This document shows positions 7,809 through 27,087 of a stretch of 64,000 nt of DNA, one piece after another. Made by a program: the position numbers and the translations under genes. The notes beneath the pieces were generated by a model, which was not told where the DNA came from, searched no databases, and worked only from the letters and a program-made list of their open reading frames with translations. Origin of the DNA: Archangium lipolyticum (lineage in GTDB: Bacteria > Myxococcota > Myxococcia > Myxococcales > Myxococcaceae); contig NZ_JANKBZ010000006.1 of NCBI RefSeq assembly GCF_024623785.1, positions 62,001 through 126,000 of the forward strand, read 5' to 3'. Position 1 is the first letter of the stretch. The number at the start of each line of letters is the position of its first letter.

Positions 7809-7933
7809 CGAAAGGACATCCTCCCTGGTGGGAAGATGCGGACACCGCGTGGACTGACAACCACAGGGCACTCGATGGGAGCGGGCATCGAGGCTCACGC
7901 CCGCTCCCTCCCCTGCCCTGCAACGCGAGGGGC

Positions 7934-8575: not shown

Positions 8576-8676
8576 GGATTCTTCTCCTGTCATGGGGCGC
8601 GGGCTTCGGAGCCGCGCGCCGTGTTCTGTCCAGGAGACCCACGAGCCATTTTCCGCGGACAGCCGCGGTGCACGCT

Positions 8677-10964: not shown

Positions 10965-11469
10965 GGGGAGCCTCCTTCCTGTGAACGCCTTGCAGCATCC
11001 GCTCGGCGTGCTCGCGGAACTTCTCGAGCCGCCGGCCCACGGTACGGCGGGGGATGCCGAGCAGTTCGGCGATCTCCTCGTGCTCCATGCCGTGGATGAA
11101 GTAGCAGGCGGCGATCTGGGCCTGCTCCGCATCCGCCTCGGCGAGCACCTTGCGCAGCGCCAGCCCATCCTCGGGCGAGTGGGGGCTCTCCGGCTCCCCC
11201 TGAGGCCCGTGAATCTGTTGCAGGCTGTCCCGGCGGCGCGCGTCGCGCAGCCGGTTGATGGCCAGGTGGGTGCTCGTCTTGTAGAGGAACGCGGCCGTGT
11301 CCCGCTCGTTGCCACTGCGGTCACGGTGCCGCAGGAAGCGGATGAACACCTCCTGCGCCACGTCCTCCGCGGCGGCGGGCTCTCCGAGGATGCGCAACGC
11401 ACAGTTGCGCACCAGCACGATGTGGCGCCGGTAGAGCGTGGAGATGTCGGGTTGGAGAGCGGGAGTCAT
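10954..11469 (-). CDS. ECF-type RNA polymerase sigma factor
   Basis: A 171-residue sigma-70-family factor. Region 2 is EDVAQEVFIRFLRHR..TAAFLYKTSTHLAINRLRDARRR and region 4 is the helix-turn-helix MEHEEIAELLGIPRRTVGRRLEKFREHA. Regions 1 and 3 are absent, as in ECF factors. The ATG at 11469 is taken as start; seven codons upstream are in frame but have no ribosome site. It heads an operon with the anti-sigma factor and caspase-like protease, and such factors usually drive their own operon. The 240-base divergent gap to 11712 should hold that promoter; no convincing GGAAC/GTC-type match was found. Confidence 0.92.
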   Translation of the reverse strand: MTPALQPDISTLYRRHIVLVRNCALRILGEPAAAEDVAQEVFIRFLRHRDRSGNERDTAAFLYKTSTHLAINRLRDARRRDSLQQIHGPQGEPESPHSPEDGLALRKVLAEADAEQAQIAACYFIHGMEHEEIAELLGIPRRTVGRRLEKFREHAERMLQGVHRKEAPHAG

Positions 11470-11711
11470 GGCGCTACAGCCAGAAGACACGCGAGCGCGA
11501 ATCCGCGGACACGGGGATTTTCACCCTCATTTTTTCCCAGGGTTCTTCCCAGCCCTGGCAAACCTCTTCACACCGGGGGCACCTTCCTTCCCACGAAGTC
11601 CCTCCAGGGTGAAGACCCAGTCCTCCAAGGCTGCCTTTTGACGGAAAAACCCCAGGGCACATCGGGTGCATGTCGGCCGCACGGCGGGTGAATCGCCCAG
11701 GGAGGCAGCAC

Positions 11712-14210
11712 ATGAAGTATCGGGGGTCGTCGAAAACGAGGTGTGCGGGGGGCGTCGCGGCACTGGTGTTGTTGACCCACTGCGCCGGCCCGGAGCCGGA
11801 GGCACGGGCAACGGACCTGGCAGTGCCCCAGAAGCCCGGCGTCTTGCGGCAGGAGGTGGCGTCACCCACGACGCTGACCTTCACGGCGAGCGAGGACGCC
11901 TACGTGAGCTACTCCGCCCAGATGGAGAACTTCGGCGGCGCCGACTCGTTGCGCGTGGACCTCTCGCCCGAGGAGTGGGGCTACCTGCGGTTCGACGTCA
12001 CGGGGGTGACGGGGACGGTGACGCGGGCGACGCTGCGGCTGTACGCGACGGAGAGCAGCGTGCTCGGGCCCCGGGTCTTCTCCTCCTCCAAGGAGTGGAC
12101 GGAGGAGGGCATCACGTTCCGCAATCATCCCGGCACGAGCGGCGGCGTCCTGGATGCCGCGGGGGCCATCTCCAGCGGCTCCTGGGTCGAATACAACGTG
12201 ACGAGCGCGGTGCGCGGCAATGGTCAGCTCGGCTTCACCCTGGTGGGCACCTCGAATGACGCGGTGAGCTTCGCCTCGAGCGAGAACAGCCGGGAGGATC
12301 GCCGGCCCCAGCTCATCCTCACCGTGGCGTCCGAACCCGACTGCATGCCGCGCACCGCCACGCGCATCTTCGACCCCCAGGCGACCTACGACGCACACGT
12401 CTCCCAGAGCCAGCCCACGCGCCGCTTCGGAAGCGAGCCTCGGCTGCTCGTGGACTCGGCACCCGACCGGCTGGAAGCCTTCGTCCAGTTCCGCTACGGC
12501 TACTCCGATGAGTGGCGGGTGCGGCAGACGAAGCTGCGGCTCTACGCCACCGATGCCTCCCCCGATGGCCCGCTGCTCTACCGCGTCAGCGATGACTGGC
12601 CCACCCCGGGGACCCAGGACTTCGATTGGAACACCCGCCCGGCACTCATCGGTGCCCCGGTGGGCAACCTCGGCGCCGTCGAGGCCGGCACCTGGGTGGA
12701 GTACGACGTGTCGAGCCTGGTGACGACCACCCACGGCATCTACAGCTTCGGCCTCGTTCCCGAGTCCACCAACGGGGTGGACTTCGTCTCGGCGGACTCG
12801 CCCTCGTACGAGCTGCGCCCCCGGCTGAACATCACCCTCGAATCCCCGCCCTACTGCTCCTACCGGGGCACGGGCGGCGGCCCCACCGGGTGGACACGGC
12901 ATTACGGCGGCGCGGGCACCGAGCAGTTGCATGCCATGGCCACCGACACGTATGGGAACTTCGTGGCGGCGGGCCAGTTCGGAGACGCTCCGTTCCCCAA
13001 CGGCAAGGGCTTCGCCCTCGCGCGCTACGCCGCGGACGGCACGCCCGTATGGACCCGTCAGGTGACCACGGAAAACGTGTGGGTGCGGGCCATCTCCCTC
13101 ACGCCCGACGGCAACATCCTCGTGGTGGGCTTCTACGATGGCGCTCCGGACCTGGGCACGGGCCCACTGCCCACCAGCTCCCAGCCCAATGCGCTCTTCC
13201 TCGCGAAGTTCTCCCCCACCGGACAGACCGAGTGGACCCGCGGCTTCGTCGCCACCTACGTGAGCCAGCCCGATGGAACACTCGAGCAATGGGCGATCAC
13301 ACCGTCGGTGGTGACCAGCGATGCCACGGGCGGCCTCATCGTCGTGGGCACCTTCTACGGCGAGGTGGACCTCGGGGGCGGAAAGCTCTTCGCGGGCTCC
13401 GCCAGCGTCTACCGCGAGGATCCCTTTCCGGGTGGCTTCGTCGCCAGATTCACCCGCGAGGGCCAACACGTCTGGTCGCGGGCTCTCGAGGCGAAGCCTT
13501 CCCAGGACCCGACGCGGATCCGCGCCGTGGCGCTCGACACGGAAGGCAACGCCCTCATCGGCGGCAGGGTGAACAAGGAAAACGACCTCGGTGATGGACC
13601 CGTGGCGAGCGCCGGGGCCTTCATCGCGAAGTACAGCGCCTCCGGAGCGTTCCAATGGAAGCGGCTGTTCCCCGAGGTTTACGGCGAGATCACCACCCTC
13701 CGGTACAAGCAGCCGCGCTTCGTGTACTTCGCCGCCAACCTGGGCGGAAGCTTCACCTTCGGAGGGCGGACGTACACGGGAGGCGATCCGGACGACCTGA
13801 ACTACCCGGACAACGTCAGCGGCTTCTTCGGCGCGCTGCACAACGATACGGGCACCGACCAGTGGATCCGCCAACCGGGGCTCGTCACCCTCAATGGGCT
13901 CGTCGTGGCGGACAACTTCGTCGCGGTCACCGGCAAGGGGCTCACCTATGATCTGGGCGGTGGAACGCTCGGGGGTTTCAACCCCAGTCCCTTCGTGGCG
14001 AGCTACACCGAGACGGGTGCCCACCGCTGGTCCCGCTCCTTCGACCCGGACCTCGGGGATGCATTCGGCCAGCCCCAGCTCTTCCTGGCGCCCCAGACCT
14101 CGGGACAGGTGCTGGTGGGCGGCAACTTCAGCACGCCCATCCAACACGACGGGACGACCTACACGCCGCGAGGCAGCTCCGACCTGCTCTACTTCCAGTT
14201 GAAGCCGTAG
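11712..14210 (+). CDS. Large surface lipoprotein with two DNRLRE/CBM96-like domains
   Basis: An 832-residue secreted protein. GGGAGG lies seven bases before the ATG at 11712. The signal peptide ends ALVLLTHC, a non-canonical lipobox because His precedes Cys24. Two copies of a DNRLRE-type beta-sandwich follow, about 55-205 (YLRFDVTGVTG...ATLRLYATES...WVEYNVT) and 214-385 (QFRYGYSD...KLRLYATDA...WVEYDVS). The rest (about 390-832) contains roughly six blade-like repeats, each with W-(T/S)-R and a following DxxGN, as in SBBP/beta-propeller surface proteins. Such proteins are thought to bind polysaccharide or act in cell contact. It is monocistronic and divergent from the ECF operon. Confidence 0.72.
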   Translation: MKYRGSSKTRCAGGVAALVLLTHCAGPEPEARATDLAVPQKPGVLRQEVASPTTLTFTASEDAYVSYSAQMENFGGADSLRVDLSPEEWGYLRFDVTGVTGTVTRATLRLYATESSVLGPRVFSSSKEWTEEGITFRNHPGTSGGVLDAAGAISSGSWVEYNVTSAVRGNGQLGFTLVGTSNDAVSFASSENSREDRRPQLILTVASEPDCMPRTATRIFDPQATYDAHVSQSQPTRRFGSEPRLLVDSAPDRLEAFVQFRYGYSDEWRVRQTKLRLYATDASPDGPLLYRVSDDWPTPGTQDFDWNTRPALIGAPVGNLGAVEAGTWVEYDVSSLVTTTHGIYSFGLVPESTNGVDFVSADSPSYELRPRLNITLESPPYCSYRGTGGGPTGWTRHYGGAGTEQLHAMATDTYGNFVAAGQFGDAPFPNGKGFALARYAADGTPVWTRQVTTENVWVRAISLTPDGNILVVGFYDGAPDLGTGPLPTSSQPNALFLAKFSPTGQTEWTRGFVATYVSQPDGTLEQWAITPSVVTSDATGGLIVVGTFYGEVDLGGGKLFAGSASVYREDPFPGGFVARFTREGQHVWSRALEAKPSQDPTRIRAVALDTEGNALIGGRVNKENDLGDGPVASAGAFIAKYSASGAFQWKRLFPEVYGEITTLRYKQPRFVYFAANLGGSFTFGGRTYTGGDPDDLNYPDNVSGFFGALHNDTGTDQWIRQPGLVTLNGLVVADNFVAVTGKGLTYDLGGGTLGGFNPSPFVASYTETGAHRWSRSFDPDLGDAFGQPQLFLAPQTSGQVLVGGNFSTPIQHDGTTYTPRGSSDLLYFQLKP

Positions 14211-14269
14211 GAGCCGCTGGCCTTCAGCCGCCCGGGAGGTGTGGGACCCCCTCCTTATAGTGCCCCGGG

Positions 14270-15214
14270 ATGGATTCCCGAGGCGCTCTCATCGCAAGTG
14301 GGCTGGTGCTCCTGTCCGTCCTGGCGGGGGTGTGGGTGCGGCGGCTCGCCGAGACCACGCCCCCGCCCGCCTCCACGCCTCCCCCCGGGTGGGCGCGGAA
14401 GGCTCCCGCCGCCGACGCGCCAGACGGCTCCGCCGACGGCTTCCTGGGGGTCATCGTCGCCAGGCAGTCCGTGGACCTCGCGCCCGTCATCGAAGGGCGG
14501 GTCGAGAGCGTCCGGGTCCAGGTGGGCGAGCGCGTCTCCCGGGGCGACATCATCGCCACGCTCGACACGCGGGCCATGGAGCGCGAGCTCGCCATCGCCG
14601 AGGCGGAGCTGCTGGAGGCCCGGGCCGACGAGCAGGTCGCCACCCATGAGCAGGAAGAGGCTCGCGAGCGCCTGAAGCGGCGCGAGCAGCCCCAGCAGCG
14701 CCTCACCGGCGCCGTCTCCGAGGAGGAGCTGGCCACGGCCCGCTACCAGGAGCGCGTGGCGACGGCGAAGCAGGAGCGCGCACGCGCCCAGGTCCAGCAG
14801 AAGGAAGCGCGCGTCAGACAGTGCCGGCAGCGCATCGAGGACGCGACCCTCGTGGCTCCTTTCGACGGGCTGGTGGCCAGCCGCCTCGTGGATCCCGGAG
14901 CGCTCGTGTCCTCCGGGCGCCCCATCATCCACCTGCTGCGCGCCGCGGGCCGCGAGGTGCGCTTCGCCATCCCCGAGCAGCGGGTGCTCGAGGTGCGGGT
15001 GGGCCAGCGCGTGCACGTGGCCGTCCAGGGCCATGAGGTGACGCTGGGGGGACAGGTCCACGACCTCTCCCCGGAGGTGGACGTGGCCGCCCGTGTGCTG
15101 TTCGGCACCGCCAGCCTGGAGGAGCCAGAGGGTTCTCCCCTGCCCTCGGGCACGGTGGTCCGGGTCTCCCTCGTCCGGGAGTCCGGGAACGACGGAGGAG
15201 TGACCGCCCCATGA
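14270..15214 (+). CDS. HlyD-type periplasmic adaptor protein
   Basis: A 314-residue membrane fusion protein: one N-terminal anchor (8-24), a split lipoyl domain (ARQSVDLAPVIEGRVESVRV...LVAPFDGLVASRLVDPGALV), a helical hairpin of about 90 residues rich in Glu/Arg/Gln, and beta-barrel and C-terminal parts. The length is typical of RND/MacA-type adaptors. It overlaps the second adaptor gene by four bases (ATGA), and the C39 ABC exporter follows, so the three form a tripartite exporter. No TolC-like outer-membrane gene is in the operon. A TATAGT hexamer ends eight bases before the ATG, but no matching -35 is seen. Confidence 0.88.
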   Translation: MDSRGALIASGLVLLSVLAGVWVRRLAETTPPPASTPPPGWARKAPAADAPDGSADGFLGVIVARQSVDLAPVIEGRVESVRVQVGERVSRGDIIATLDTRAMERELAIAEAELLEARADEQVATHEQEEARERLKRREQPQQRLTGAVSEEELATARYQERVATAKQERARAQVQQKEARVRQCRQRIEDATLVAPFDGLVASRLVDPGALVSSGRPIIHLLRAAGREVRFAIPEQRVLEVRVGQRVHVAVQGHEVTLGGQVHDLSPEVDVAARVLFGTASLEEPEGSPLPSGTVVRVSLVRESGNDGGVTAP

Positions 15215-16212
15215 GCCAGGACACCCCCAGCGGCCAGGCCCCGGAGGCGAAACCCGCTCCGGCGCCGAAACCCTCGGCCGCCAGCGTCTACCGGAAGGCG
15301 GCCCTGGACTTCTATCGCCAGGACCGGCGCGAGCAGGGAGACGTGCTGCACCTGTCTCCCGCCTGGGCGCGGTGGACGTACTGGCTGCTGACCGTCCTGC
15401 TGCTGGCGGGACTCCTTTATTGTCTGCTCGGCCGCGCGCACGAGTACGCCTCCGGCCCCGCCGTCCTGCGTGTGGAGGGGCGGACGGACCTGACGGTGCA
15501 GGCGCCGGGCGTGGTGGCCACCGTGGAAGTCCTTCCCGGCCAGCGCGTGGAGCGAGGACAGACGCTGGTGACGTTCCAGGCGCAGGAGGAGGCCGACGCG
15601 GCCGCCCGGCTGACGCGGGAGATAGAGCTCCACCTCGTGCGCTTCATGCGAAACCCCTCGGACGTCGCCGCGCACCAGGCGCTCACGACACTGAATGCCG
15701 AGCGGGAGCTGGCGCTCGCGCGCGTGGAGGCCCGCACCTTGAAGGCGCCCCACGCGGGAGTCGTGGGAGACGTGCGCATCCAGCCCGGCCAGTACCTGGC
15801 CGCCGGCACCCGTGTGCTCTCGCTCGTCGAGGAGGAGGCGCCGGTGTCGCTGGTGGCCATGCTGCCCGGCTACTACCGCCCCTTCCTGCGCCCGGGCATG
15901 CCGCTGCGCGTGGAGCTGGAGGGCTTCCGCTACGACTACCGCGAGCTGGTCATCGAGTCGGTGGGGGACCAGGTCATCGGACCCAACGAGGTCCGCCGCT
16001 TCCTGGGGCCGGACCTGGCGGATGCCCTCACCCTCGAGGGCTCCGCCGTCCTGGTGAAGGCCCGCCTGCCCTCGCACACGTTCGTCAACGAGGGCCGGGT
16101 GCTCGGCTACTTCGACGGCATGGTGGCGCGCGCGGAGGCCCGCGTCCGCACCGAGCGCATCCTCACCCTGCTCTTCCCCGCCCTGAAAGGACTGCTCCCC
16201 GATGACGTCTGA
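15211..16212 (+). CDS. Second HlyD-type adaptor protein
   Basis: A 333-residue adaptor with a cytoplasmic N-terminus of about 50 residues, one membrane segment (about 52-70, YWLLTVLLLAGLLYCLL), and a lipoyl domain split by a short hairpin (TDLTVQAPGVVATVEVLPGQ ... TLKAPHAGVVGDVRIQPGQYLA). A beta domain follows. The hairpin is shorter than in the first adaptor. Two different adaptors in tandem suggest they work as a heteromer or at different heights of the export channel; this is inferred. It overlaps both neighbours: ATGA with the upstream gene and 11 bases with the ABC transporter gene. Confidence 0.85.
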   Translation: MSQDTPSGQAPEAKPAPAPKPSAASVYRKAALDFYRQDRREQGDVLHLSPAWARWTYWLLTVLLLAGLLYCLLGRAHEYASGPAVLRVEGRTDLTVQAPGVVATVEVLPGQRVERGQTLVTFQAQEEADAAARLTREIELHLVRFMRNPSDVAAHQALTTLNAERELALARVEARTLKAPHAGVVGDVRIQPGQYLAAGTRVLSLVEEEAPVSLVAMLPGYYRPFLRPGMPLRVELEGFRYDYRELVIESVGDQVIGPNEVRRFLGPDLADALTLEGSAVLVKARLPSHTFVNEGRVLGYFDGMVARAEARVRTERILTLLFPALKGLLPDDV

Positions 16213-18415
16213 GCACAAGCCCGGGTTGCTGGAGCGCTTCCCTGGCCTTCAACGGCTCCGGCTCGGTGGCCGGCGGCGCCACATCCCCGAAATCCGCCAG
16301 ATGACCCTCACCGACTGCGGGGCCGCCTGCCTCGCCATGGTGCTGGGCTACCACGGCCGCGACATGAGCCTGGACGAGGTGCGGCAGATCATCGGCGAGG
16401 CGCGCGACGGTGTCTCCGCCCGCAGCCTGCTGACGGCGGCGCGCCTGCTCGGGCTGCGCGGGCGGGGCATCTCCATCGACCTGGACCGGCTCGAGTACCT
16501 CCCGCCCGCCACCATCCTCCACTGGCGCTTCACGCACTTCGTCATCTTCGAGAGGCTGGGGCGCAACTGTGTCCACATCGTCGACCCGGAGCAGGGGCGC
16601 CGGCAGGTCACCCTGGAGCAGTTCAGCCAGTGCTTCACCGGCGTGGCGCTGTTGCTCGAGCCGGCGGACGACTTCCAGGAGGGCGGTGTGCGGCGCCGTG
16701 GAGGCTACGCCCAGCTCCTGAGGCACCTGCGGCAGCCAGACACCCTGGCGCGCATCCTCTTCCTCTCACTGGCCCTACAGCTCTTCACGCTCGCCATCCC
16801 CCTGCTGACGGGAATGGTGGTGGACCGGGTCATCCCCCGCGGCGACCACCACCTGCTCCTGGCGCTGGGCCTCGCCCTGCTGCTCGTCTTCCTCTTCCAG
16901 TTCCTGGCCTCGCTCGTCCGCGGCTACCTGCTGCTGGAGCTGCGCACCCGCGTCGACGCCGGCATGACGCTGGGCTTCCTCGACCACATGGTCAGCCTGC
17001 CCTACCCGTTCTTCCAGCTCCGCCCGGCGGGCGATCTGATGATGCGGCTCAACGCCCAGGCCACCGTGCGCGAGTTCCTCTCGTCCACCGCCCTCTCCGC
17101 CCTGCTGGACGGGCTGCTGGTGCTCGTCTACCTCGCCGTCCTGCTCGCCCTGGACCTTCCCCTGGCGCTCAGCGTGCTCGTGCTGGGGACGGCCCAGGTG
17201 CTCATCTTCGTCTTCTCGCGCCAGCGGCAGCGCAGCCTCATGTCGCAGAACCTGGAGCTGGAGGCCAAACGGCAGAGCTACCAGGTGGCCATCCTCACCG
17301 GCATGCAGACGTTCAAGGCCTTCGGGGTGGAGGAGCGGGCGGTGCAGAACTACTCGAACCTCTTCATCGACGTGCTCAACGTGGCGCTCGCCCGGGGCAG
17401 GCTGACCGTCTGGGTGGATTCGATGATGAGCGCCCTGCGGCTGGGCTCGCCCCTCTTCCTCACCTGCCTGGGCGTGTGGCGCGTGATGGAGGGCGCGCTC
17501 AGCCTGGGCACCATGCTGAGCCTGACGGCGCTGGCCTCCGCCATCCTCGTGCCCCTGGCCAACCTGGTCTCCACGGCCGGGCAGTTCCAGCTGCTCGGCA
17601 GCTACCTCGAGCGCATGGACGACGTGCTCGTCACGCCCCCCGAGCGCTCCGCCCAACACCAGGGCACCCAGGTGACCCTGGCGGGCAACATCGAGCTGGA
17701 GAAGGTGTCCTTCCGCTACAGCCCGGCCACGCCGCTGGTGGTGCAGGACGTGTCGGTGCGGCTGAAGACGGGGCAGATGGTGGCCATCGTCGGCCGCTCG
17801 GGCGCGGGGAAGACGACGCTCGCCAACCTGCTGCTGGGACTGTACCTGCCCACCTCCGGCCGGGTGCTCTACGAGGGCAAGGACCTGAACGACCTGGACC
17901 TGCGCTCGGTGCGGAGCCAGGTGGGCATCGTCCTGCAGGATCCGTTCTTCTTCAACGCCACGCTGCGCGAGAACATCTCCCTGGGGGACCCGTGGATTTC
18001 GCAGGAGAGCATCGTCGAGGCCACGAAGCTGGCCCACATCCACGATGACATTCAAACCATGCCCATGCAGTACGACACGCTGCTGGCGGACCGGGGCACG
18101 TCGCTCTCGGGAGGACAGCGGCAGCGGCTGTCCCTGGCCCGGGCCCTGGCGCGCAAGCCCGCGGTGCTGCTGCTGGACGAGGCCACCAGCGCGCTGGACG
18201 CCATGACCGAGTCCAAGGTGCAGGCGTCGCTGGACGCCCTCCCCTGCACGCGCGTCGTCATCGCCCACCGGCTGAGCACCATCGTGCGCGCGGACCTCAT
18301 CCTCGTCATGGACGGCGGACGCCTGGTGGAGCAGGGCACCCACGAGGAATTGATGGCGCTCCACGGCCATTACGAGAAGCTCGTCCAGCACCAGACGCTG
18401 CTCAAGGCGTCGTGA
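16202..18415 (+). CDS. C39-peptidase ABC exporter (double-glycine leader type)
   Basis: A 737-residue fused exporter. The N-terminal C39 peptidase (about 25-150) has oxyanion Gln33, nucleophile Cys39 (QMTLTDCGAACLAMVLGYHG), His112 (THFVIF) and Asp128 (HIVDPEQGRR), so the protease is intact. The membrane domain (about 175-470) has six helices. The ATPase domain has Walker A GRSGAGKTTL (about 530), signature LSGGQRQRLSLARAL (about 635), Walker B VLLLDEAT and the H-loop VIAHRL. Such exporters cut a peptide leader after Gly-Gly while secreting the peptide. A candidate substrate is encoded on the opposite strand at 21150-21302. The gene overlaps the second adaptor gene. Confidence 0.95.
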   Translation: MTSEHKPGLLERFPGLQRLRLGGRRRHIPEIRQMTLTDCGAACLAMVLGYHGRDMSLDEVRQIIGEARDGVSARSLLTAARLLGLRGRGISIDLDRLEYLPPATILHWRFTHFVIFERLGRNCVHIVDPEQGRRQVTLEQFSQCFTGVALLLEPADDFQEGGVRRRGGYAQLLRHLRQPDTLARILFLSLALQLFTLAIPLLTGMVVDRVIPRGDHHLLLALGLALLLVFLFQFLASLVRGYLLLELRTRVDAGMTLGFLDHMVSLPYPFFQLRPAGDLMMRLNAQATVREFLSSTALSALLDGLLVLVYLAVLLALDLPLALSVLVLGTAQVLIFVFSRQRQRSLMSQNLELEAKRQSYQVAILTGMQTFKAFGVEERAVQNYSNLFIDVLNVALARGRLTVWVDSMMSALRLGSPLFLTCLGVWRVMEGALSLGTMLSLTALASAILVPLANLVSTAGQFQLLGSYLERMDDVLVTPPERSAQHQGTQVTLAGNIELEKVSFRYSPATPLVVQDVSVRLKTGQMVAIVGRSGAGKTTLANLLLGLYLPTSGRVLYEGKDLNDLDLRSVRSQVGIVLQDPFFFNATLRENISLGDPWISQESIVEATKLAHIHDDIQTMPMQYDTLLADRGTSLSGGQRQRLSLARALARKPAVLLLDEATSALDAMTESKVQASLDALPCTRVVIAHRLSTIVRADLILVMDGGRLVEQGTHEELMALHGHYEKLVQHQTLLKAS

Positions 18416-18434
18416 GACACGAGGAGTCATGTCC

Positions 18435-19775
18435 ATGTGGAAGAGGAGAAGCCGGAGCCGTACCGCCCTGGCCAGCCTGTTGCTCGCCTGCGGCGTGGGA
18501 ACGGGGTGCGCCTCGAGCTCCCAGACGAAGGCATCGCCCGTGGTGGAGCAGGGCTCGCGCCAGGGGGCCGACACCCTCGCCTTCACCGACGTGAACGTCA
18601 TCACCCTGGGGCAGGTGCCGGTGCTGGAGCACCAGACCGTGGTCATCACGGGAGGGCGGATCTCCCGGCTCGGGCCTCGGGACGGCACGCCGGTGCCCCA
18701 GGGAGCGCGCGTCATCGACGGAGCCGGCCGGTACCTGATGCCGGGGATGGCGGACATGCACGTCCACCTGCCCCAGGAGGCCTCGCCCGCGGAGCTGGAG
18801 CGGCTGTTGGAGCTCTACCTGGTCAACGGCGTCACCACCGTGCGCGCCATGCGAGGCGGCCCCACCCAGCTGGCCGTGCGCGACCGCATCCGGGCGGAAG
18901 GACTGGTGGCGCCCGAGCTCTACGTGGGCGGCCCCCCCGTGGCGGAGGAGCTCACCCCCGAGCGGGCCCGGGCGCTCGTCGAGGAGCAGCAGCGGGCGGG
19001 CTATGACTTCCTCAAGCCGCTCGGGGGCTTCGACGCGGCGGCGTACGAGGCGCTCGTGGCGCGCGCGGGAGAGCTCGGCTTCCCCGTGGAGGGGCACGTG
19101 CCCGCGGAGGTGGGAATCGACCGGGCGCTCGCGGCCCGGCAGCGCACCATCGAGCACGTGCAGGGCTATGCGGCGGCGGCGAAGCAGGGCCCCGAGGCGC
19201 TGGAGGCGCTGGCCCGCCGCACCCGGGAGGCTGGCATCTGCAACTGCCCCACGCTGGACTTCTTCGCCGTCGAGTACGAGCCGGACGAGTCGCGGCTCCT
19301 CCAACGCCCGGGTCTCGACCACGCCGCCGCGGCGGACCTGGAGGCCTGGCGCAAGCACAAGCGGGAGAAGGCGCCGCCGGCGGACCGGGAGCAGCGGCAG
19401 CAGCGGCTCCAGCGCATCGTCTCGGCCCTGTCCGACGCGGGCGCGCCCCTGCTGGTGGGCACGGACTCGCCCGGTGAGTTCCGGGTGCCAGGCTTCTCCT
19501 ATGTGGAGGAGCTCCAGCAACTGGTGCGGGCCGGACTGACACCGGCCGCGGTCCTCCGCGCGGCCACTCGCACCGCCGCCGAGTGCCTGGGTACCCAGGA
19601 GAGCGCCGGAGCGGTGGCCGAGGGGCAGCGCGCCGACCTGGTGCTGCTGGAGCGCAACCCGCTCGAGGACGTCCGCCACGTGGCCCGGCCCGCGGGCGTC
19701 ATGGTGCGGGGACACTGGCTGCCGCGCGAGGAGCTGGACCGCCGCCTCGCCGCGCAGTCCCGGCGGGAGCCGTAA
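18435..19775 (+). CDS. Lipoprotein amidohydrolase (imidazolonepropionase/prolidase type)
   Basis: A 446-residue metal-dependent hydrolase. Two in-frame ATGs exist (18429 and 18435); the second has GAGGAG at the proper eight-base spacing. A lipoprotein signal ends GVGTGC. Metal ligands are visible: HxH in DMHVHLP, Lys in FLKPLGG (probably carbamylated), His in VEGHVP and IEHVQGY, and Asp in VGTDSPGEF. Related secreted enzymes hydrolyse Xaa-Pro dipeptides, cyclic imides or similar amides. It begins 19 bases after the exporter gene, so it belongs to that operon and could trim or degrade exported peptide. That role is inferred. Confidence 0.82.
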   Translation: MWKRRSRSRTALASLLLACGVGTGCASSSQTKASPVVEQGSRQGADTLAFTDVNVITLGQVPVLEHQTVVITGGRISRLGPRDGTPVPQGARVIDGAGRYLMPGMADMHVHLPQEASPAELERLLELYLVNGVTTVRAMRGGPTQLAVRDRIRAEGLVAPELYVGGPPVAEELTPERARALVEEQQRAGYDFLKPLGGFDAAAYEALVARAGELGFPVEGHVPAEVGIDRALAARQRTIEHVQGYAAAAKQGPEALEALARRTREAGICNCPTLDFFAVEYEPDESRLLQRPGLDHAAAADLEAWRKHKREKAPPADREQRQQRLQRIVSALSDAGAPLLVGTDSPGEFRVPGFSYVEELQQLVRAGLTPAAVLRAATRTAAECLGTQESAGAVAEGQRADLVLLERNPLEDVRHVARPAGVMVRGHWLPREELDRRLAAQSRREP

Positions 19776-19810
19776 CCATGGTGCCCGCCTCCCGGGAGCC
19801 ACGGCTGGAG

Positions 19811-21025
19811 TCACGCGGCGCTGGCGGCCGGGGCTTCCGGGGGGTTGAGCTGGGCGAAGCGCTCGTAGCTGAAGTTGTAGGCCTGGTTGGACATGCCGTA
19901 GCGCATCAGGTCCGGCCGCTCGCGGCGCGCGTCCTCGAAGATCTGGCGGAACACCGCGAACAGCTCCTCGCCCTTCGGCGTGAGGAAGCCCTCGAGGGAG
20001 AGGTTCCGCTCGTCGATCTGGCTCTTCTTGAAGATGAAGGAGAGCCGGCCCAGGAGCTCGTGCCGCTGCTTCCCGGAGAAGAGGCCCCGCTCGTCACAGG
20101 CCCGGAGGCAGTCGATCATCATCGCCTCCGTGTAGACGCCGTGGAAGATGGAGTACAGGGAGCGCGTGTCGGTGGCCTTGCCGGTCACCTCGCGCAGCCG
20201 CATGTCCGGATCCTTCGCCAGGTAGTCGCGCCGCTGGACGGTGACGGCGTTGAAGATGACATGGCCGCACTGGTGGACGAGGTCGTCGATGAAGAAGACC
20301 TCGTCGTCTCCCTCTTTGACATTGAGGAAGGCGACCCCGTGGGCGGCCAGCGCGGCGCACGAGTTCAAATCCTCGCTGTGGAACAGCATCACCTGCTTCA
20401 CGGTGGCGGTCAGCTCCCGGTAGAAGTCGGGCTTCTGCTCCTGGAGGATGGCCAGGGCCCGCTGCAGGGAGTCCTGGAATGGCAGCACGTCCTCGTGGAC
20501 CCGCACGGCGACCTTGCCGCTCGTGGCGTCGGTGAGGATGAGGTCGTAGAGAGGATTCGTGTAGCGGCACAGCTCGATGGAGGTGCCGGGAAGGACGATG
20601 GGCGGCTCGAAACGGAAGTCCACGGGCGCGCCCCCATCCGTCAGGAGATAGCGCCCCGCCTCCGCGTCCCACTGGAGCACGAGGTTGCGCTCGCGCACCT
20701 CCGTCAGGAAATAGCCAATGCGTGGCAGGTAGACGCGGCCCTTCGCATCGGCATACACCTCGATGGCGTCGGGCCTGAGGGACGGCTCCACGAGGCCGAG
20801 GACGACCTGCGGCAGCCCGATGGGAGACGTGCCAATCTGACTCTTGCTGGCGCTGAACCAGGCGAAGAGGAGCGGCTCGAGGAAGGTGTCGTCCGGAGCC
20901 TCGCTCAACACCTCGTAGATGTCTGGATCGGTGCGAAGCAACAACGCGCGCAAGGTATTGGCGAGCTGGCGCTGGCCAGTGATGACCTTCTCTCTTTGCA
21001 AGCGGATGAACTGCTCACGATCCAT
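19811..21025 (-). CDS. Putative HxxxH peptide-modifying enzyme (aKG-HExxH-like)
   Basis: A 404-residue protein starting at the ATG at 21025 (AGGAG eight bases ahead). It has no signal peptide or membrane segment. Residues 240-260 read FFIDDLVHQCGHVIFNAVTV, an HxxxH element (His251, His255) on a predicted helix, followed by LYSIFHGVYTEAMM (about 290-303). That order and spacing recall the HExxH peptide-modification family, later described as alpha-ketoglutarate-dependent peptide beta-hydroxylases, but the Glu is replaced by Gln here. The assignment is by memory of motifs, not a search. It sits 124 bases downstream of a double-glycine-leader peptide gene on the same strand and converges on the C39 exporter operon, which supports a role in maturing that peptide. 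Confidence 0.5.
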   Translation of the reverse strand: MDREQFIRLQREKVITGQRQLANTLRALLLRTDPDIYEVLSEAPDDTFLEPLLFAWFSASKSQIGTSPIGLPQVVLGLVEPSLRPDAIEVYADAKGRVYLPRIGYFLTEVRERNLVLQWDAEAGRYLLTDGGAPVDFRFEPPIVLPGTSIELCRYTNPLYDLILTDATSGKVAVRVHEDVLPFQDSLQRALAILQEQKPDFYRELTATVKQVMLFHSEDLNSCAALAAHGVAFLNVKEGDDEVFFIDDLVHQCGHVIFNAVTVQRRDYLAKDPDMRLREVTGKATDTRSLYSIFHGVYTEAMMIDCLRACDERGLFSGKQRHELLGRLSFIFKKSQIDERNLSLEGFLTPKGEELFAVFRQIFEDARRERPDLMRYGMSNQAYNFSYERFAQLNPPEAPAASAA

Positions 21026-21149
21026 GACCCGCGCTCCTGGGGAGGTTTTCAATGCAATACAGACTGCGACCCGGCACCGGAGCCGGACGCGGCGAGCGCG
21101 TCACGGTCCGGGCCAGGCCCTGGTTGTTTCCCTGGGTATTCCCGGAGAA

Positions 21150-21302
21150 TCAGGAGATCGCGTCGCCCGTGTGGCAATCGCCCTTCGCGGCGACGCCACC
21201 CCAGATCTGCCCGAGCACGTCCTCGGACAGCGCGCCGTCCAGCTGCTCACGGGCGTCCTTCTTCTCGGTCTTCACGGGCTTCTTGTTCCAGGAGAGATTC
21301 AT
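21150..21302 (-). CDS. Candidate double-glycine-leader precursor peptide
   Basis: A 50-residue peptide starting at the ATG at 21302, with AAGGGA eight bases ahead. Residues 25-36 read LSEDVLGQIWGG, which fits the double-glycine leader pattern cut by C39 peptidases: Leu at -12, Ser at -11, Leu at -7, Ile at -4 and Gly-Gly at -2/-1. The core would be 14 residues, VAAKGDCHTGDAIS, with one Cys, one His and two Asp. The leader is lysine-rich at its start. It is the first gene before the putative modifying enzyme, with an IR-containing, relatively AT-rich upstream region. The reading frame stays open upstream to 21467, but that part looks non-coding. It could be a RiPP or a bacteriocin-like signal peptide; the product is unknown. 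Confidence 0.6.
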   Translation of the reverse strand: MNLSWNKKPVKTEKKDAREQLDGALSEDVLGQIWGGVAAKGDCHTGDAIS

Positions 21303-21415
21303 GACTACATCCCTTTCCGCGCCAGTTGGATGGTTTTGCGACCGACGCGAAAAGCATTTCACCAGAAACCAAGACATTTCACAGACCCTCACACGTGCTA
21401 CCACGAAGCCATATT

Positions 21416-21430
21416 CAATGCGTAGCATTG
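21416..21430. promoter_or_regulatory. Short perfect inverted repeat upstream of precursor peptide
   Basis: CAATGC-GTA-GCATTG is a perfect six-base inverted repeat with a three-base spacer, 114 bases before the start of the precursor gene. A weaker CAAC-GT-GTTG arm pair follows at 21431-21440. It lies in the gap between the precursor gene and the divergent MFS gene (21303-21643), which otherwise holds no gene. It could be a repressor operator; no regulator gene lies nearby. Confidence 0.3.
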
Positions 21431-21643
21431 CAACGTGTTGCGTTCCCGTAACACTGCCAACCTCCAACTGGGGGTCCGCGCGAGGAGCCCACCCACCGGG
21501 TGGCTGGCAATGAAAGCACGGGAGGGTTGGATTCCAGACGGTATGTCTTCCTGACGAGTCATGCCGGTCTCGCGGGATGAGAGGAACCCGGAGCCCGCAA
21601 TATCTGGAGCGGCCGGAGCAGTTGTGCAGATACTCCGCGCGCC

Positions 21644-22855
21644 ATGAATGACGAAAGCATCCGCGGAGAAGGAGTGAAGGTGACCCGGCCGAACCCCGTC
21701 CCCCTGCTACTCACCATCGCCTACCTGGCCTTCGTGAGCCTCGGACTGCCGGACGCGGTGCTGGGCGTGGCATGGCCGTCCGTGCGCGAGACGTTCTCCC
21801 TGCCGCTGAGCGGCCTCGGCATGGTCCTGGTGGGCACGGGGACGGGGTACTTCCTATCGGGCCTGCTCGCCGGAAGACTCGTCCAGACCCTGGGCGTGGG
21901 TACGCTGCTGACGGTGAGCAGCGCGCTCGTCGCGCTCAGTCTCTTCGGGTACTCGCTCGCCCCGGTGTGGCCCCTGTTCCTGCTGTGCACGCCGTTCATC
22001 GGCATGGGCTCGGGCGCCATCGACTCCGGCATCAATGCCTATGCGGCGAGCCACTTCCCGGTGCGGCACGTCAACTGGTTGCACGCCTGCTACGGCTTCG
22101 GCGCCATGCTCGGTCCGCTGGTGATGACGGGAGCGCTCGTCCGGAGCGGCTCGTGGCGCTGGGGGTACGTGGCCATCGGCGCGATGCTGCTGCTCATGGC
22201 CCTGGCCTTCGGATCCACCCGGGCCTCCTGGCGGACGGCGGGGGCGCCCGGTGCGGCCAGCGCGGAGGCACGGGTCGGTACCCTCCAGGCCCTGGGTCAC
22301 CCGATGGTGTGGCTGCAGGTCGTCATCTTCTTCGTGTACACGGGGTTGGAGGTGACGGCGGGGCAGTGGTGCTTCACGCTGTACACCGAGGCGCGCGGCG
22401 TGCCGCGCGAGCTGGCCGGAACGTGGGCGGGCCTGTACTGGGGGAGCCTCGCGGTGGGGCGGGTCTTCATGGGCTTCGTGGTGGAGCGGCTGGGGCCGGA
22501 TCGCCTGCTGCGCTTCAGCATTCTGAGTGCCGTGGCCGGCAGCGCCCTGTTCGCGTTCGGGCCGACGCTGGCGAGCTTTGGGGGGTTGCTGCTGATCGGC
22601 ATGAGCCTGGCGCCCATCTACCCCACGTTGATGTCACGGACTCCGGGCCGGCTGGGCGAGGGCTACGCGGCGCATGCGGTCGGCTTCCAGGTGAGTGCCG
22701 CGATGCTGGGAGCCGCCATCCTGCCGAGTCTGGCGGGAGTGCTGGCGGGGCGCTTCGGGCTGGGGATGGTCGGCTGGGTGACCGTGGCGGCGGCGGCGGT
22801 GCTGTGGCTGCTGCACGAGACGCTGCTGAAGCTCACGCCGCGAAGCGCCGCCTGA
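21644..22855 (+). CDS. Major facilitator superfamily permease
   Basis: A 403-residue protein with about 12 membrane segments. Conserved elements are LGLPDAVLGVAWPSVRETF in helix 1, the loop GTGYFLSGLLAGRLVQTLGVG, GMGSGAIDSGINAYAASHFP and NWLHACYGFGAMLGP. The last two resemble the FucP-like/sugar permease branch (helices 4-5). The substrate cannot be read from sequence. ATG at 21644 lacks a good ribosome site; a GTG at 21680 behind GGAGAAGGAG is an alternative that would give 391 residues. It is divergent from the precursor peptide gene and may or may not belong to that system; export or immunity is possible but unsupported. Confidence 0.85.
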   Translation: MNDESIRGEGVKVTRPNPVPLLLTIAYLAFVSLGLPDAVLGVAWPSVRETFSLPLSGLGMVLVGTGTGYFLSGLLAGRLVQTLGVGTLLTVSSALVALSLFGYSLAPVWPLFLLCTPFIGMGSGAIDSGINAYAASHFPVRHVNWLHACYGFGAMLGPLVMTGALVRSGSWRWGYVAIGAMLLLMALAFGSTRASWRTAGAPGAASAEARVGTLQALGHPMVWLQVVIFFVYTGLEVTAGQWCFTLYTEARGVPRELAGTWAGLYWGSLAVGRVFMGFVVERLGPDRLLRFSILSAVAGSALFAFGPTLASFGGLLLIGMSLAPIYPTLMSRTPGRLGEGYAAHAVGFQVSAAMLGAAILPSLAGVLAGRFGLGMVGWVTVAAAAVLWLLHETLLKLTPRSAA

Positions 22856-22925
22856 GTTTGTCCATTCGCGTCCCGTGAGCTAGAAAACGCGGACCCACCC
22901 GCAGTCCCAGAAGAAGGGGAGTTCC

Positions 22926-23168
22926 ATGTCCAAGCTCGTCGCGTTCTTCGCCGTGGCCATCACCGCAGCGGGTGTGCTCGTTCCGCTCGCCGCGTATGCC
23001 TATGGCATGGAGACCGGTCCCTGCGGTGTCTCCGTCCAGTGCCGTGGAGGCTCTACCGTCGCGTGCAGCGGGCAGACGGTCTGCTACTGGAAGGTGGATT
23101 CGCTCACGAGCCCCGGTTTCGTGGAGTGTGACAAACAGGGCCGCGTCTACTGCGGCCTCATCGAGTAG
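22926..23168 (+). CDS. Small six-cysteine secreted protein
   Basis: An 80-residue protein with AGGGGAG five bases before the ATG. Residues 1-26 form a signal peptide (VAFFAVAITAAGVLVPLAAYA). The mature part of about 54 residues has six cysteines (33, 39, 47, 53, 68, 76), enough for three disulfides, and is otherwise Gly/Ser/Val rich. I recognise no family. It starts 70 bases after the MFS gene and is followed by a copy of the dispersed repeat. Disulfide-stapled microprotein, toxin or surface-coat component are all open. Confidence 0.7.
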   Translation: MSKLVAFFAVAITAAGVLVPLAAYAYGMETGPCGVSVQCRGGSTVACSGQTVCYWKVDSLTSPGFVECDKQGRVYCGLIE

Positions 23169-23181
23169 CGGGCGCCTCCAT

Positions 23182-23217
23182 CCCATCTCCCGCTGGGAGA
23201 GGGTCGGGGTGAGGGTA
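23182..23217 (-). repeat. Dispersed palindromic repeat, copy 2
   Basis: ATCTCCCGCTGGGAGAGGG followed by TCGGGGTGAGGGTA, in the same orientation as copy 1. It lies between the convergent ends of the six-cysteine protein gene and a DUF4139 gene. The palindrome arms differ by one base from the others, so the hairpin is slightly weaker. Confidence 0.8.
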
Positions 23218-23242
23218 CCCGAGCCCGTACTCCACCCCGTGC

Positions 23243-24811
23243 CTACAGCCCGCTCATGTCGTAGCTGGTGGGCACGTCCACGTGGAAGGAGAGCACCACC
23301 GAGCGCTGCTCGGCGGGGGCGAGCGGCACCTTCCACGAGACGATGCCGTCCATCGAATCGAGCGCATGGCCGCCGGTGCTCTTCTCCCTGTCCAGCTCCA
23401 CCTTCACGTCGTCGAGCTCGGAGACGGGAATGTGCTCGGCCAGCTCCACCACCTCGGGGCGCTCGCGGTAGTTGGCGAGGTTGAAGCGGTAGGCGTAGCG
23501 GAAGCGGCGCCGGCCGCCGAAGAGGCCCTCGTCGCGGGCGATCTCCTCCACCACCACGCGCTCCACGCGCAGCGACTCCTCGACGCCGAAGGTGAGCTGG
23601 AAGGCGCCGCCCTGGGGCACCTGCTCCAGCACCTGCCGGCCGATGAAGCCTGAGGCGCGGAACATGTCCACGGGACCCGGCAGCAGCGGAAAGGGAGCGC
23701 CGTTGACGAGGCTGGCCACGCGGAACACCACCGGGTGCAGCTTGGGCACGGTGCTCCAGGAGAAGGAGGACTTCATCCTCGTGCGAGCCACGCGGAGCCG
23801 CACGGCCGTGCCATCGCCGGACACCTGCGCCAGCTCCGGCGCCAGGAGCTGCACGGAGACCCCCTGTGAGGCCGCGCGCAGCGCACCCTCCGTCTCCGCC
23901 AGGACCTGGCCGCCGGCGCGTGCGTGCTCCTGACGCTCGTCGCGACGGACCAGCACCTTGCGCTCATCGGGCCGCTTCCAGGCGCTCAGCGTCAGGGGCT
24001 CGAGCTCCGGCGGCTCCGCGTTGTCGCGCGACCGGGCGGTGGAGAGCACCAGCCGCACCCCGCTCCAGTCCTCGCCGGTCGCCTGGCGCACGGTGGCGAA
24101 GGTGGACAGCTCCACCTGCCCCCCGGCCTCGTCGGCACGAGCCTCATACACGGGAGTCCAGCCCGCGCCACCCACCACGTACTGCAACTCCACCCGGGCA
24201 TGGCCCTCGCTGGGGCAGGCCAGCCGCACCTCCACCCGGCGCTCCATGCGCGCGGCCGAGGACTCCAGGTACGTCGCCCGCTCGCGCAGCGAATCCAGCT
24301 CGCGCTGCACCTCGCGCATGCGGGCGGCCCGGGCCGCCACGTCGGAGGCGGCGCGCAGCCGGGTGTCCAGCGCGGCATCGAAGGCCGAGGCCCACGCACG
24401 GGTGTCCGGCTTCGGCTCGGAGAGCTCGAGCGTCACCCGCTGCACGGCCACGTCGGTGAGGCCCGCGCCCAGCTTGCGCAGCGCCTCCGCGCGCGCCCGG
24501 GCGTCCACCAGCTCCGCCATCTCGCGCTCCAGGGCCTCGCGCTTCTGGCGCAGCGCCTCGCGCTCGGGGCCGAAGTCCCTCGTCAGGGGGCGCTCCTCGG
24601 CCACGAGGCTCTCCACGGTGGCCTCGTCGGAGCGGGCGCGGAAGCTGGCCGGGTCCGCCGCGGGCGGCACCGATTCGAAGACGGCGAGCGCGTGGCCGGA
24701 GCACGGCACGGACTCCACCCGCGTCACCTGGGCACGGTCCAGGTAGACGACGACGGAGGACACCTTCGCGGGGGCGGCGAGCGCCAGCATCATCAGGGGC
24801 AGGGTGTGCAT
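23243..24811 (-). CDS. DUF4139/DUF4140 secreted protein (MuiA-like)
   Basis: A 522-residue protein with a short signal-like N-terminus (HTLPLMMLALAAPA). An N-terminal DUF4140-type domain starts VSSVVVYLDRAQVTRVESV, a coiled-coil region covers about 95-190, and the DUF4139 core includes VVGGAGWTPVYEARAD, TGEDWSGVRLVLSTA and a C-terminal beta domain ending HVDVPTSYDM. GGAGG precedes the ATG, 11 bases after the stop of the longer paralogue, so both are in one operon. The family includes the Azotobacter mucoidy inhibitor A; its biochemical role is unknown. Confidence 0.85.
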   Translation of the reverse strand: MHTLPLMMLALAAPAKVSSVVVYLDRAQVTRVESVPCSGHALAVFESVPPAADPASFRARSDEATVESLVAEERPLTRDFGPEREALRQKREALEREMAELVDARARAEALRKLGAGLTDVAVQRVTLELSEPKPDTRAWASAFDAALDTRLRAASDVAARAARMREVQRELDSLRERATYLESSAARMERRVEVRLACPSEGHARVELQYVVGGAGWTPVYEARADEAGGQVELSTFATVRQATGEDWSGVRLVLSTARSRDNAEPPELEPLTLSAWKRPDERKVLVRRDERQEHARAGGQVLAETEGALRAASQGVSVQLLAPELAQVSGDGTAVRLRVARTRMKSSFSWSTVPKLHPVVFRVASLVNGAPFPLLPGPVDMFRASGFIGRQVLEQVPQGGAFQLTFGVEESLRVERVVVEEIARDEGLFGGRRRFRYAYRFNLANYRERPEVVELAEHIPVSELDDVKVELDREKSTGGHALDSMDGIVSWKVPLAPAEQRSVVLSFHVDVPTSYDMSGL

Positions 24812-24822
24812 GGCGGCTCCTC

Positions 24823-27087
24823 CTACTGGTACTGCTCCAGGCGCCAGCCCTTGGGGTGGCGGACGGTGTACAGGAAGGACACCACCGTCTTCTCCGAGGG
24901 CGGCACCATCAGGCGCCACATCAACGTGCCCTTGTCCTTGTCCTGCTCGGCATAGGGCTCGGTGCGTACGAGCTTCACCTCCACGTCACCGCTGCGCGAC
25001 AGCGGCCACTGGTCGAGGATGCGCACCGGGAGGGCGAAGGGGTACGGGTTGGCCACCTCGATGGTGACGAGGTACTCGGTGATTTCGTCCTTGCCGATGA
25101 AGCCCTTCTCGGAGGTCATGAGCTTCACGTTGCGCACGGGGCGCACCGCGGAGTCGACGCCGAGCGGCAGGGTGAAGGGCTCGCCCGGCGACACCAGGGT
25201 GAGCCGGGCCTGTCCCGCGGGGTCCGCACCGACGAAGAGCTGCGCCTCGCCGCCGGGCATCACCTGCCGGGATGGGCTGCGCAGCTCCGCCACGAGGAAG
25301 GCATTCGGGGTGAGGGCGGGGTACAGCTTGCGCTCCACCTGCACGGGCCAGGTCTCGGTGAAGAGGGGGACGCGCCGCTCGCCCCCGCCGCTGCGCACCG
25401 TCTCGCGGCGCTGCGCGGGGAAGGACAGGGCATGGCCCCCGGCGAGCGAGGCGGGCAGGTTCGGCTCCAGCACGGGCCGCCGCCAGCCCTCCGGCGGCGC
25501 GAGGCCCACGGGCACGTCCACCGGAGGCGGAGACCAGGAGCCGCCCCCACTGACGGAGTACGCACTGGCCCCGGGGGCGAGCTCGGCGAGGCTCTCGAAG
25601 GAGCGCGTTGCGCCCCCCTTGCCGCCGGGACGGTTCACCGCGATGCGCTTGATGAACTCCTCGTCGACGTTGACCCCCGTCGCAGTGGAGCCCTCGTCGA
25701 GGGTGTGCGGCGCGGCCACCACGGCGATCTGCTCGGAGAACATCTCCGACAGCAACTCCGCGTTCACGCGGACGGTGCGGGACGCCCGCAGCTGGACCTC
25801 GGAGCGCACGAAGGGTTTGAACGCTTCCTTCTCGAATCGCAGGGAATAGACGCCGGCCGGCAACAGGGGAAAGCGGTAGTTGCCCTGCGCGTCCGTCACC
25901 ACCACCTGCTCGCCGGCCAGAACAGGCGAGGTCGCGGTGACGACCGCGTCCGCGAGGGGCTTCTTGTCGTCCGCGTTCACGAGGGTGCCGACGAGGGTGC
26001 TGTCACCCACCGGGGCTTGTGACGGAGTGGGCGGAGTGCGCGTCCGCTCGGCCTCTGCTGGGGGCTGCGGCGCCGGGGTGGTAGCCGGATTGGCCTGGAC
26101 GGTGAGAGCGAGGAGGCGGGAGCGGATGCGCTCGTCCTCGTTGGGCTCCTGGGGAGGAGAACGAGGCGTGGGCGGCGGGCCGCGCCAGGAGTCGGCGACG
26201 GGGGCGGGAGTGGGGATGAAGCGCTCGCGCTGGCCGATCTTCCAGGTGGTGGGCCTCGGCGCGGTGGTGGCGGTGGCGGGGAGGGCGGTGCTGAGCGTGA
26301 GCGCGGCGTCCTCCCAGTCCTCGCCGGTCTGCTGGCTGACGCGCCCGGAGAAGGCCACCTCCACGCGGTTGGACGCGGGATCGAGCCGCAGCTCATAGGA
26401 GGGGTACCAGCGAGCCCCCGAGGTGACGTAGGTGAGCGTGAGCGTCGCGGGGCCCTGGCCCAAGAGGGTGGGGATGACCTCCACTCCCGGGCGCGGAGGC
26501 GTGGCACCAAGCTGCCGCGCCTCCCGGACGCGCTGGGAGAGCTCGCGATCGAGCGACTCCTCGCGCTGGGACACCTCGCGCAGCTTCGCCTGGAGACGGG
26601 CAGTGGTCTCCACCACGAAGCCGGTGGCGGCGCGCCAGCCGGAGGCATCGAGCCGGGAGGGGCTCTGGGCGGCGGCCTTCCTCTGGGGGTTGGGGGCGGC
26701 GTCCTGGGTGACGACGGGCCGCACCTGGCCGAGCGCGGTGAGCTGGGCGGCGTAGGCCTCGTGCTCGGCGCGGGCCTGGGCGATCTGATCATCGAGCCGC
26801 TCCAGCTCGGTGACGAGCCGGCGGGCCTCGGTGGCGGGAAGGGCCTGGGAGTCCACGGAGCGGATGTCCACGCGGGCCACCTCGGCGCCCTGGGCCTCCA
26901 CGCGGATGCTGGAGGGGTCCACCGAGCCATACAGCGGGGGCAGCTCCACGCGCTGGGTACCGGAGAGCGTCACCTTCGCGGTGCGCACCACGCGGGCCCG
27001 GTCACTGTAGACGGTGACCGAGGTGACGGGCGCATCCACCGCGGCGAGCCACAACGCGCTCAGGGCCGACAGTCCGAGGACAGGCAT
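24823..27087 (-). CDS. DUF4139 protein with inserted TonB-receptor-like N-terminal module
   Basis: A 754-residue paralogue of the downstream gene. Residues 1-17 are a signal-like segment, DUF4140 lies at about 20-115 (VTSVTVYSDRARVVRTAKV), a coiled coil to 200, and the first part of DUF4139 to about 310 (GARWYPSYELRLD, TGEDWEDAALTLSTALP). An extra block of about 160 residues then interrupts it. The block has a carboxypeptidase-regulatory-like beta domain (STLVGTLVNADDKKPLADAV...GNYRFPLLPAGVYSLRF, about 360-430) and a stretch resembling the start of a TonB plug (ATGVNVDEEFIKRI...SFESLAELAPGA, about 465-505). DUF4139 resumes from about 550 to the end. No barrel follows the plug-like part. The start ATG at 27087 has a weak ribosome site. 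Confidence 0.8.
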   Translation of the reverse strand: MPVLGLSALSALWLAAVDAPVTSVTVYSDRARVVRTAKVTLSGTQRVELPPLYGSVDPSSIRVEAQGAEVARVDIRSVDSQALPATEARRLVTELERLDDQIAQARAEHEAYAAQLTALGQVRPVVTQDAAPNPQRKAAAQSPSRLDASGWRAATGFVVETTARLQAKLREVSQREESLDRELSQRVREARQLGATPPRPGVEVIPTLLGQGPATLTLTYVTSGARWYPSYELRLDPASNRVEVAFSGRVSQQTGEDWEDAALTLSTALPATATTAPRPTTWKIGQRERFIPTPAPVADSWRGPPPTPRSPPQEPNEDERIRSRLLALTVQANPATTPAPQPPAEAERTRTPPTPSQAPVGDSTLVGTLVNADDKKPLADAVVTATSPVLAGEQVVVTDAQGNYRFPLLPAGVYSLRFEKEAFKPFVRSEVQLRASRTVRVNAELLSEMFSEQIAVVAAPHTLDEGSTATGVNVDEEFIKRIAVNRPGGKGGATRSFESLAELAPGASAYSVSGGGSWSPPPVDVPVGLAPPEGWRRPVLEPNLPASLAGGHALSFPAQRRETVRSGGGERRVPLFTETWPVQVERKLYPALTPNAFLVAELRSPSRQVMPGGEAQLFVGADPAGQARLTLVSPGEPFTLPLGVDSAVRPVRNVKLMTSEKGFIGKDEITEYLVTIEVANPYPFALPVRILDQWPLSRSGDVEVKLVRTEPYAEQDKDKGTLMWRLMVPPSEKTVVSFLYTVRHPKGWRLEQYQ

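Follow-up and report, generated by a model that had tools for sequence, protein, structure and literature searches.

A probable self-contained RiPP island combines a double-glycine-leader precursor gene with a divergent aKG-HExxH-type enzyme and a C39 exporter

The 64,000-nucleotide stretch of DNA analysed here (the window) carries a 50-codon open reading frame that was proposed in the initial annotation to be an orphan peptide gene facing a C39 peptidase-exporter. The locus raises the question of whether this small ORF is a genuine gene and, if so, whether it stands alone. The analysis confirmed the small ORF as a real gene and showed that it does not stand alone: it belongs to what is probably a self-contained RiPP island, one that diverges from the known clusters of alpha-ketoglutarate (aKG)-HExxH enzymes. 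The gene, its parts, and its upstream region are as follows.

21150-21302, minus strand: precursor peptide gene, 50 aa, with a 36-aa leader ending in LSEDVLGQIWGG and a 14-aa core, VAAKGDCHTGDAIS
21195-21302, minus strand: leader peptide, 36 codons, ending in a double-glycine cleavage site (from the sequence and the C39 consensus in PMC6363468)
21153-21194, minus strand: core peptide VAAKGDCHTGDAIS, with an unmodified [M+H]+ of 1344.621 computed from the sequence
21303-21673, no strand assigned: AT-richer intergenic region and putative promoter region (57.7% GC versus 69.8% for the island)

The ORF runs from ATG to TGA and is translated as MNLSWNKKPVKTEKKDAREQLDGALSEDVLGQIWGG followed by VAAKGDCHTGDAIS. 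Its codon score, calculated as a log-likelihood against the codon usage of the clear genes in the window, was 0.465 per codon, against 0.43 ± 0.18 for 50-codon pieces cut from true genes, and only 0.06% of wrong-frame pieces of that length reached 0.465. The in-frame extension upstream of the ATG scored -0.72, and the ATG at 21302 is therefore the likely start. A 105-aa version starting at TTG was ruled out by its coding score. The 50-codon ORF is a genuine gene.

For the leader, the following positions of the C39 pattern were found: L(-12), S(-11), L(-7), I(-4), G(-2), and G(-1), which agrees with the Leu, Ser, Ile, and Gly-Gly positions claimed in the initial annotation; LSEDVLGQIWGG also satisfies a strict definition of such leaders (GG, GA, or GS at the end, L(-12), L(-7), and a hydrophobic residue at -4). 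Position -8 is occupied by Val and not by the Glu of the published ComA consensus (PMC6363468), a residue that is characteristic of many such leaders but not of all. Across the 64-kb window, this was the sole small ORF combining a strict C39 leader with a ribosome site and codon bias, and an average of 0.05 strict leader matches was expected by chance in order-2 Markov sequence of the window's length. The claims of a 50-codon gene with a C39-type leader, of its own ribosome site, and of a 14-residue core were thus borne out, and the core contains the stretch GDCHTGD, with two Asp and one His.

The upstream region was also described earlier as AT-richer, which is real (47-51% GC versus 70%), and as containing an inverted repeat, which did not hold as a meaningful element. 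The repeat has 9-nt arms lying 132 nt apart, and at least one such repeat occurred in 20% of shuffled sequences, which is not beyond chance. A sigma-70 consensus was looked for in 21303-21673 and was not found.

The genes accompanying the precursor were delimited by comparison with a genome of the same genus (G003). By blastn, window positions 8203-14211 and 21674-25602 were collinear with G003 (locus L138) at 93% identity, and the two blocks lay 58 bp apart there. The stretch between them in the window contains exactly six genes and the upstream region of the precursor; in addition to the precursor gene, the features are the following.

14212-21673, no strand assigned: 7462-bp island, replaced by 58 bp in G003 (blastn)
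14270-15214, plus strand: HlyD-family membrane-fusion (adaptor) protein 1, 314 aa (Pfam HlyD_3, HlyD_D23)
15211-16212, plus strand: HlyD-family membrane-fusion protein 2, 333 aa (Pfam HlyD_3)
16202-18415, plus strand: C39 peptidase-containing ABC exporter, 737 aa (Pfam Peptidase_C39, ABC_membrane, ABC_tran)
18429-19775, plus strand: amidohydrolase-family lipoprotein-like protein, 448 aa (Pfam Amidohydro_1)
19811-21025, minus strand: alpha-ketoglutarate-HExxH-type enzyme, 404 aa from its ATG (TIGR04267, alignment, AlphaFold2 model)

The left edge of the island lies directly after the stop of the DNRLRE-domain gene at 11670-14210, and the right edge directly before the GTG start of an MFS gene at 21674. 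The genes for the precursor, the modifying enzyme, and the export and protease functions are present as one unit. As the peptide and exporter operons are jointly absent in G003, albeit in this single comparison genome, the tie between them is firmer than proximity would make it, and the pairing of peptide and exporter, a guess in the initial annotation, is supported. The exporter was correctly placed about 2.7 kb away in a convergent operon (2738 bp). The orphan status was wrong, because the gene of a modifying enzyme, the next same-strand gene, begins 124 bp downstream of the precursor and had been overlooked. No further coding-like small ORFs were found in the gaps of the island by coding score.

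Since the other four genomes of the genus lack the flanking genes at the island site, a gain here and a loss in G003 are indistinguishable. These four genomes match the window mainly outside about 7900-23232, a stretch that looks like a variable hot spot. The DNRLRE/CBM96 gene (11670-14210) falls outside the island and also occurs in G003, and it was therefore ruled out as a part of the system. The start of the MFS gene is probably the GTG at 21674 and not the mechanically assigned ATG at 21644, and the GTG start is conserved in G003.

The enzyme encoded at 19811-21025 had no Pfam match. It scored 40.5 bits against the NCBIfam model TIGR04267 (IPR026337, aKG-HExxH-type peptide beta-hydroxylase), a marginal match that is 0.5 bit over the cutoff of 40 and covers model positions 2-174 of 177. 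In an alignment with 20 other family members, to which its identity was 14-21%, both motif His and an invariant Pro were kept. The motif itself reads H251-Q252-C-G-H255 (HQCGH), in which the Glu of HExxH is replaced by Gln. At least 90% of the aligned sequences have this Glu, Gln occurred in the window enzyme only, and the true motifs of the other members examined were HE..H, making HQCGH unique in that set. The island would work like an aKG-HExxH RiPP cluster, but since its enzyme lacks the defining Glu, we class it as a divergent variant rather than an ordinary member.

Other residues around the site appear to be retained. After realignment with a homologue from another genome of the phylum (G010), His295 shared a column with the His of 'SFHATF' in that protein; it matches by eye the His of 'LLHAIF' in ChlH, and Asp286/Arg288 match 'SDPRPL' and, in ChlH, 'EDLRP'. 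With the motif His pair, His295, and Asp286/Arg288 kept, the metal site may be intact, with putative ligand roles for these residues. The HExxH motif in alpha-ketoglutarate oxygenases of this type has been reported as iron-binding (PMC13060819).

The AlphaFold2 model had a mean pLDDT of 63.6 and was good only for about residues 180-375, the catalytic part. Compared with the PDB, it matched ChlH (8s5f) with Z 19.3 over 199 residues and SjiH (22ob) with Z 17.1, while the third match was at 7.9; Foldseek agreed on ChlH, and a profile of the family alignment run on PDB sequences found 22nu/22ob and 8s5f ChlH. The enzyme is thus predicted to have the fold of ChlH, 8s5f and 22ob being two solved enzymes of that type. 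No homologues were found on plasmids, in genome_contigs, or in viral_contigs, and among 195 genomes of the phylum no close relative was present, the only hit being a partial match of 28% in G010.

The exporter carries QMTLTDCGAAC at residues 33-43 (with Cys39), His112, Asp128, a Walker A motif at 531, and LSGGQ at 635, and it matched PCAT1 (4ry2) over its full length. The amidohydrolase showed weak similarity, below the cutoff, to Xaa-Pro dipeptidases, and its role is possibly extracytoplasmic trimming or protection.

The exporter belongs to a subfamily with many members of 53-65% identity in the same bacterial family, usually preceded by a HlyD pair; an exporter scan of genome_contigs returned only distant relatives (29-37% identity). 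We read the neighbourhoods of 64 exporter loci, including the window. Small double-glycine ORFs were present within 3 kb of the exporter in 30 of them, at 0.12 per kb versus 0.04 per kb farther out, and many of those listed are plausible RiPP precursors. LanM synthetases (DUF4135 with LANC_like) were found at 23 of the 64 loci, HExxH enzymes at four, and radical SAM enzymes at two, and no tested enzyme type was found at 36. HExxH genes are rare, with about 61 matches in 195 genomes, and four such loci within about 1 Mb of exporter neighbourhood amount, on a rough estimate, to about a hundredfold excess; three of the four were first met via the HExxH gene, though all are also in the exporter list.

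Candidate precursors were also noted at several further loci. In this genome, subfamily exporters at L066 and L087 (contigs C2 and C23) adjoin LanM synthetases and precursors with mersacidin-type leaders, and these are likely class II lanthipeptide clusters. At L043:10035-11024 (minus strand), three precursors that resemble one another, their cores following the pattern GTCG[SG]TY.SC.STYTAP, lie upstream of two HExxH genes and are divergent from the HlyD/C39 exporter. L115:288-2051 (minus strand) encodes six similar short peptides in tandem, whose leaders end in QLDGAVGG or alike; a C39 exporter belonging to the subfamily lies 5-6.6 kb away. At L104:9368-9562, L105:6678-6869, and L106:6664-6867, next to a subfamily exporter, double-glycine leaders (NLSDENLEQVAGG) precede cores that are very rich in Arg/Asp. 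The ORFs at L038:8191-8463, L039:8448-8714, and L041:8871-9191 (all minus strand), of about 90-106 aa, are located directly upstream of genes of the HExxH type. Their products have N-termini that look secretory, stretches of about 9-14 Gln, and the conserved C-terminus AG[VI]QFAPSD[SD]GFAV; these are possibly poly-Gln substrates, recalling the Gln hydroxylation by PflC/PosC.

It was only in 2024 that enzymes of the aKG-HExxH type came to be recognised as oxygenases of RiPPs, and several of those characterised act jointly with other tailoring enzymes. In RiPP precursors, known members of the family beta-hydroxylate residues of Asp, His, Gln, Pro, or Phe (PMC12636437, PMC13060819). We consider it rather probable that the island at 14212-21673 constitutes a minimal RiPP pathway, in which the enzyme would oxidise Asp/His of the core before C39 cleavage and export. 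After translation of the 50-aa precursor, the enzyme encoded downstream in the same direction, a divergent alpha-ketoglutarate/Fe(II) oxygenase of the HExxH type, would bind the leader and oxidise the core, most simply by beta-hydroxylation of Asp, His, or both within GDCHTGD. Cleavage after Gly-Gly would then fall to the C39 domain of the island ABC exporter, and the exporter, working with the HlyD adaptors and with a TolC-type channel whose gene lies elsewhere, would secrete the 14-residue product. Possible roles for the amidohydrolase are trimming of the product and protection of the producer. The earlier proposal of a small RiPP or peptide-signal system is supported by the island and by the RiPP context of the exporter relatives.

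Searches for homologues of the precursor peptide returned none, either in 39 related genomes (E 0.01) or in 195 genomes of the phylum (E 0.05), and this absence limits what can be stated on the core. The initial annotation had named a lack of homologues with a conserved leader as counting against its proposal, which formally applies; the evidence from the island outweighs it. The same lack would suit a chance ORF in an island whose exporter and oxygenase act on another substrate. Such a coincidence is extremely improbable, considering that the coding score equals that of real genes, that only 0.05 strict leaders per window are expected by chance, that the ORF lies directly upstream of the enzyme gene, and that the island gaps hold no other coding-like small ORF.

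The remaining alternatives concern what the enzyme does. A degenerate HQxxH protein, without oxygenase activity or serving only in leader binding or escort, would leave an essentially unmodified 14-residue product, either microcin-like or a signal. The replacement of Glu by Gln and the marginal TIGR04267 score are in keeping with such a loss, and the substrates of C39 exporters include unmodified bacteriocins and pheromones as well (PMC6363468). We nevertheless regard it as unlikely, because both motif His, His295, and Asp286/Arg288 are kept around a motif reported to bind iron, the reading frame is unbroken and has a codon score like that of genes, and the fold match of the model is strong. 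Alternatively, the cluster may be a RiPP cluster in which the altered active site catalyses desaturation, crosslinking, or oxidative backbone cleavage. PflC/PosC perform oxidative backbone cleavage besides hydroxylation (PMC12636437), and HQxxH occurs in no other member of the set examined, but hydroxylation is the commonest reported outcome, and a different reaction seems quite improbable. It is also rather unlikely that a natural HQxxH variant acts alone on the 14-residue peptide with a chemistry unreported for the family, which would represent a new, minimal class of RiPP restricted to one lineage.

Under the preferred reading of a minimal RiPP pathway with core oxidation, a single divergent enzyme with Gln at the family-defining Glu is apparently the sole tailoring enzyme for a very short core. 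The island offers a compact setting in which to examine the role of the motif Glu, and its two-gene system is easy to reconstitute. The exporter subfamily, which is common in this bacterial family, is also linked to RiPP enzymes of several types, so that unannotated precursors can be sought by using the exporter as a probe.

The island was compared with known systems. With the aKG-HExxH RiPP clusters (ChlB/ChlH, PflC/PosC, PesO, and BpmH), the island enzyme shares the domain, the predicted fold, the His pair, and a neighbouring precursor; it differs in having HQCGH in place of HExxH and in standing alone, without a radical SAM, MNIO, or other recognised tailoring enzyme. PflA is NHLP-like and lacks a typical GG site, whereas the island precursor has a short C39-type double-glycine leader. 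The class II lanthipeptide clusters from this bacterial family, which have LanM, a leader of the mersacidin type, and a LanT-like exporter, share the exporter subfamily (54-65% identity), mostly the HlyD pair, and the double-glycine leader. The island leader, however, does not have the mersacidin-type N-terminal part, and no LanM-like gene was found in the island or elsewhere in the window, which places the island outside class II lanthipeptides. In common with the PCAT/AMS exporters (PCAT1, ComA, and LahT), the island exporter has the C39 and ABC architecture, the Cys39 of DCG, His112, and Asp128, but the leader of its substrate lacks Glu(-8), and it represents a Gram-negative version with two HlyD adaptors. 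Two loci from the same family, L043 (G135) and L044 (G113), are like the island in combining double-glycine precursors, HExxH enzymes, HlyD, and a C39 exporter of 64% identity. Unlike the island, each has two HExxH genes of around 540 aa with the motif Glu present and cores rich in Cys/Tyr/Ser/Thr (GTCGSTY and ETCYSSY), and the peptide and exporter operons are divergent in these loci but convergent in the island.
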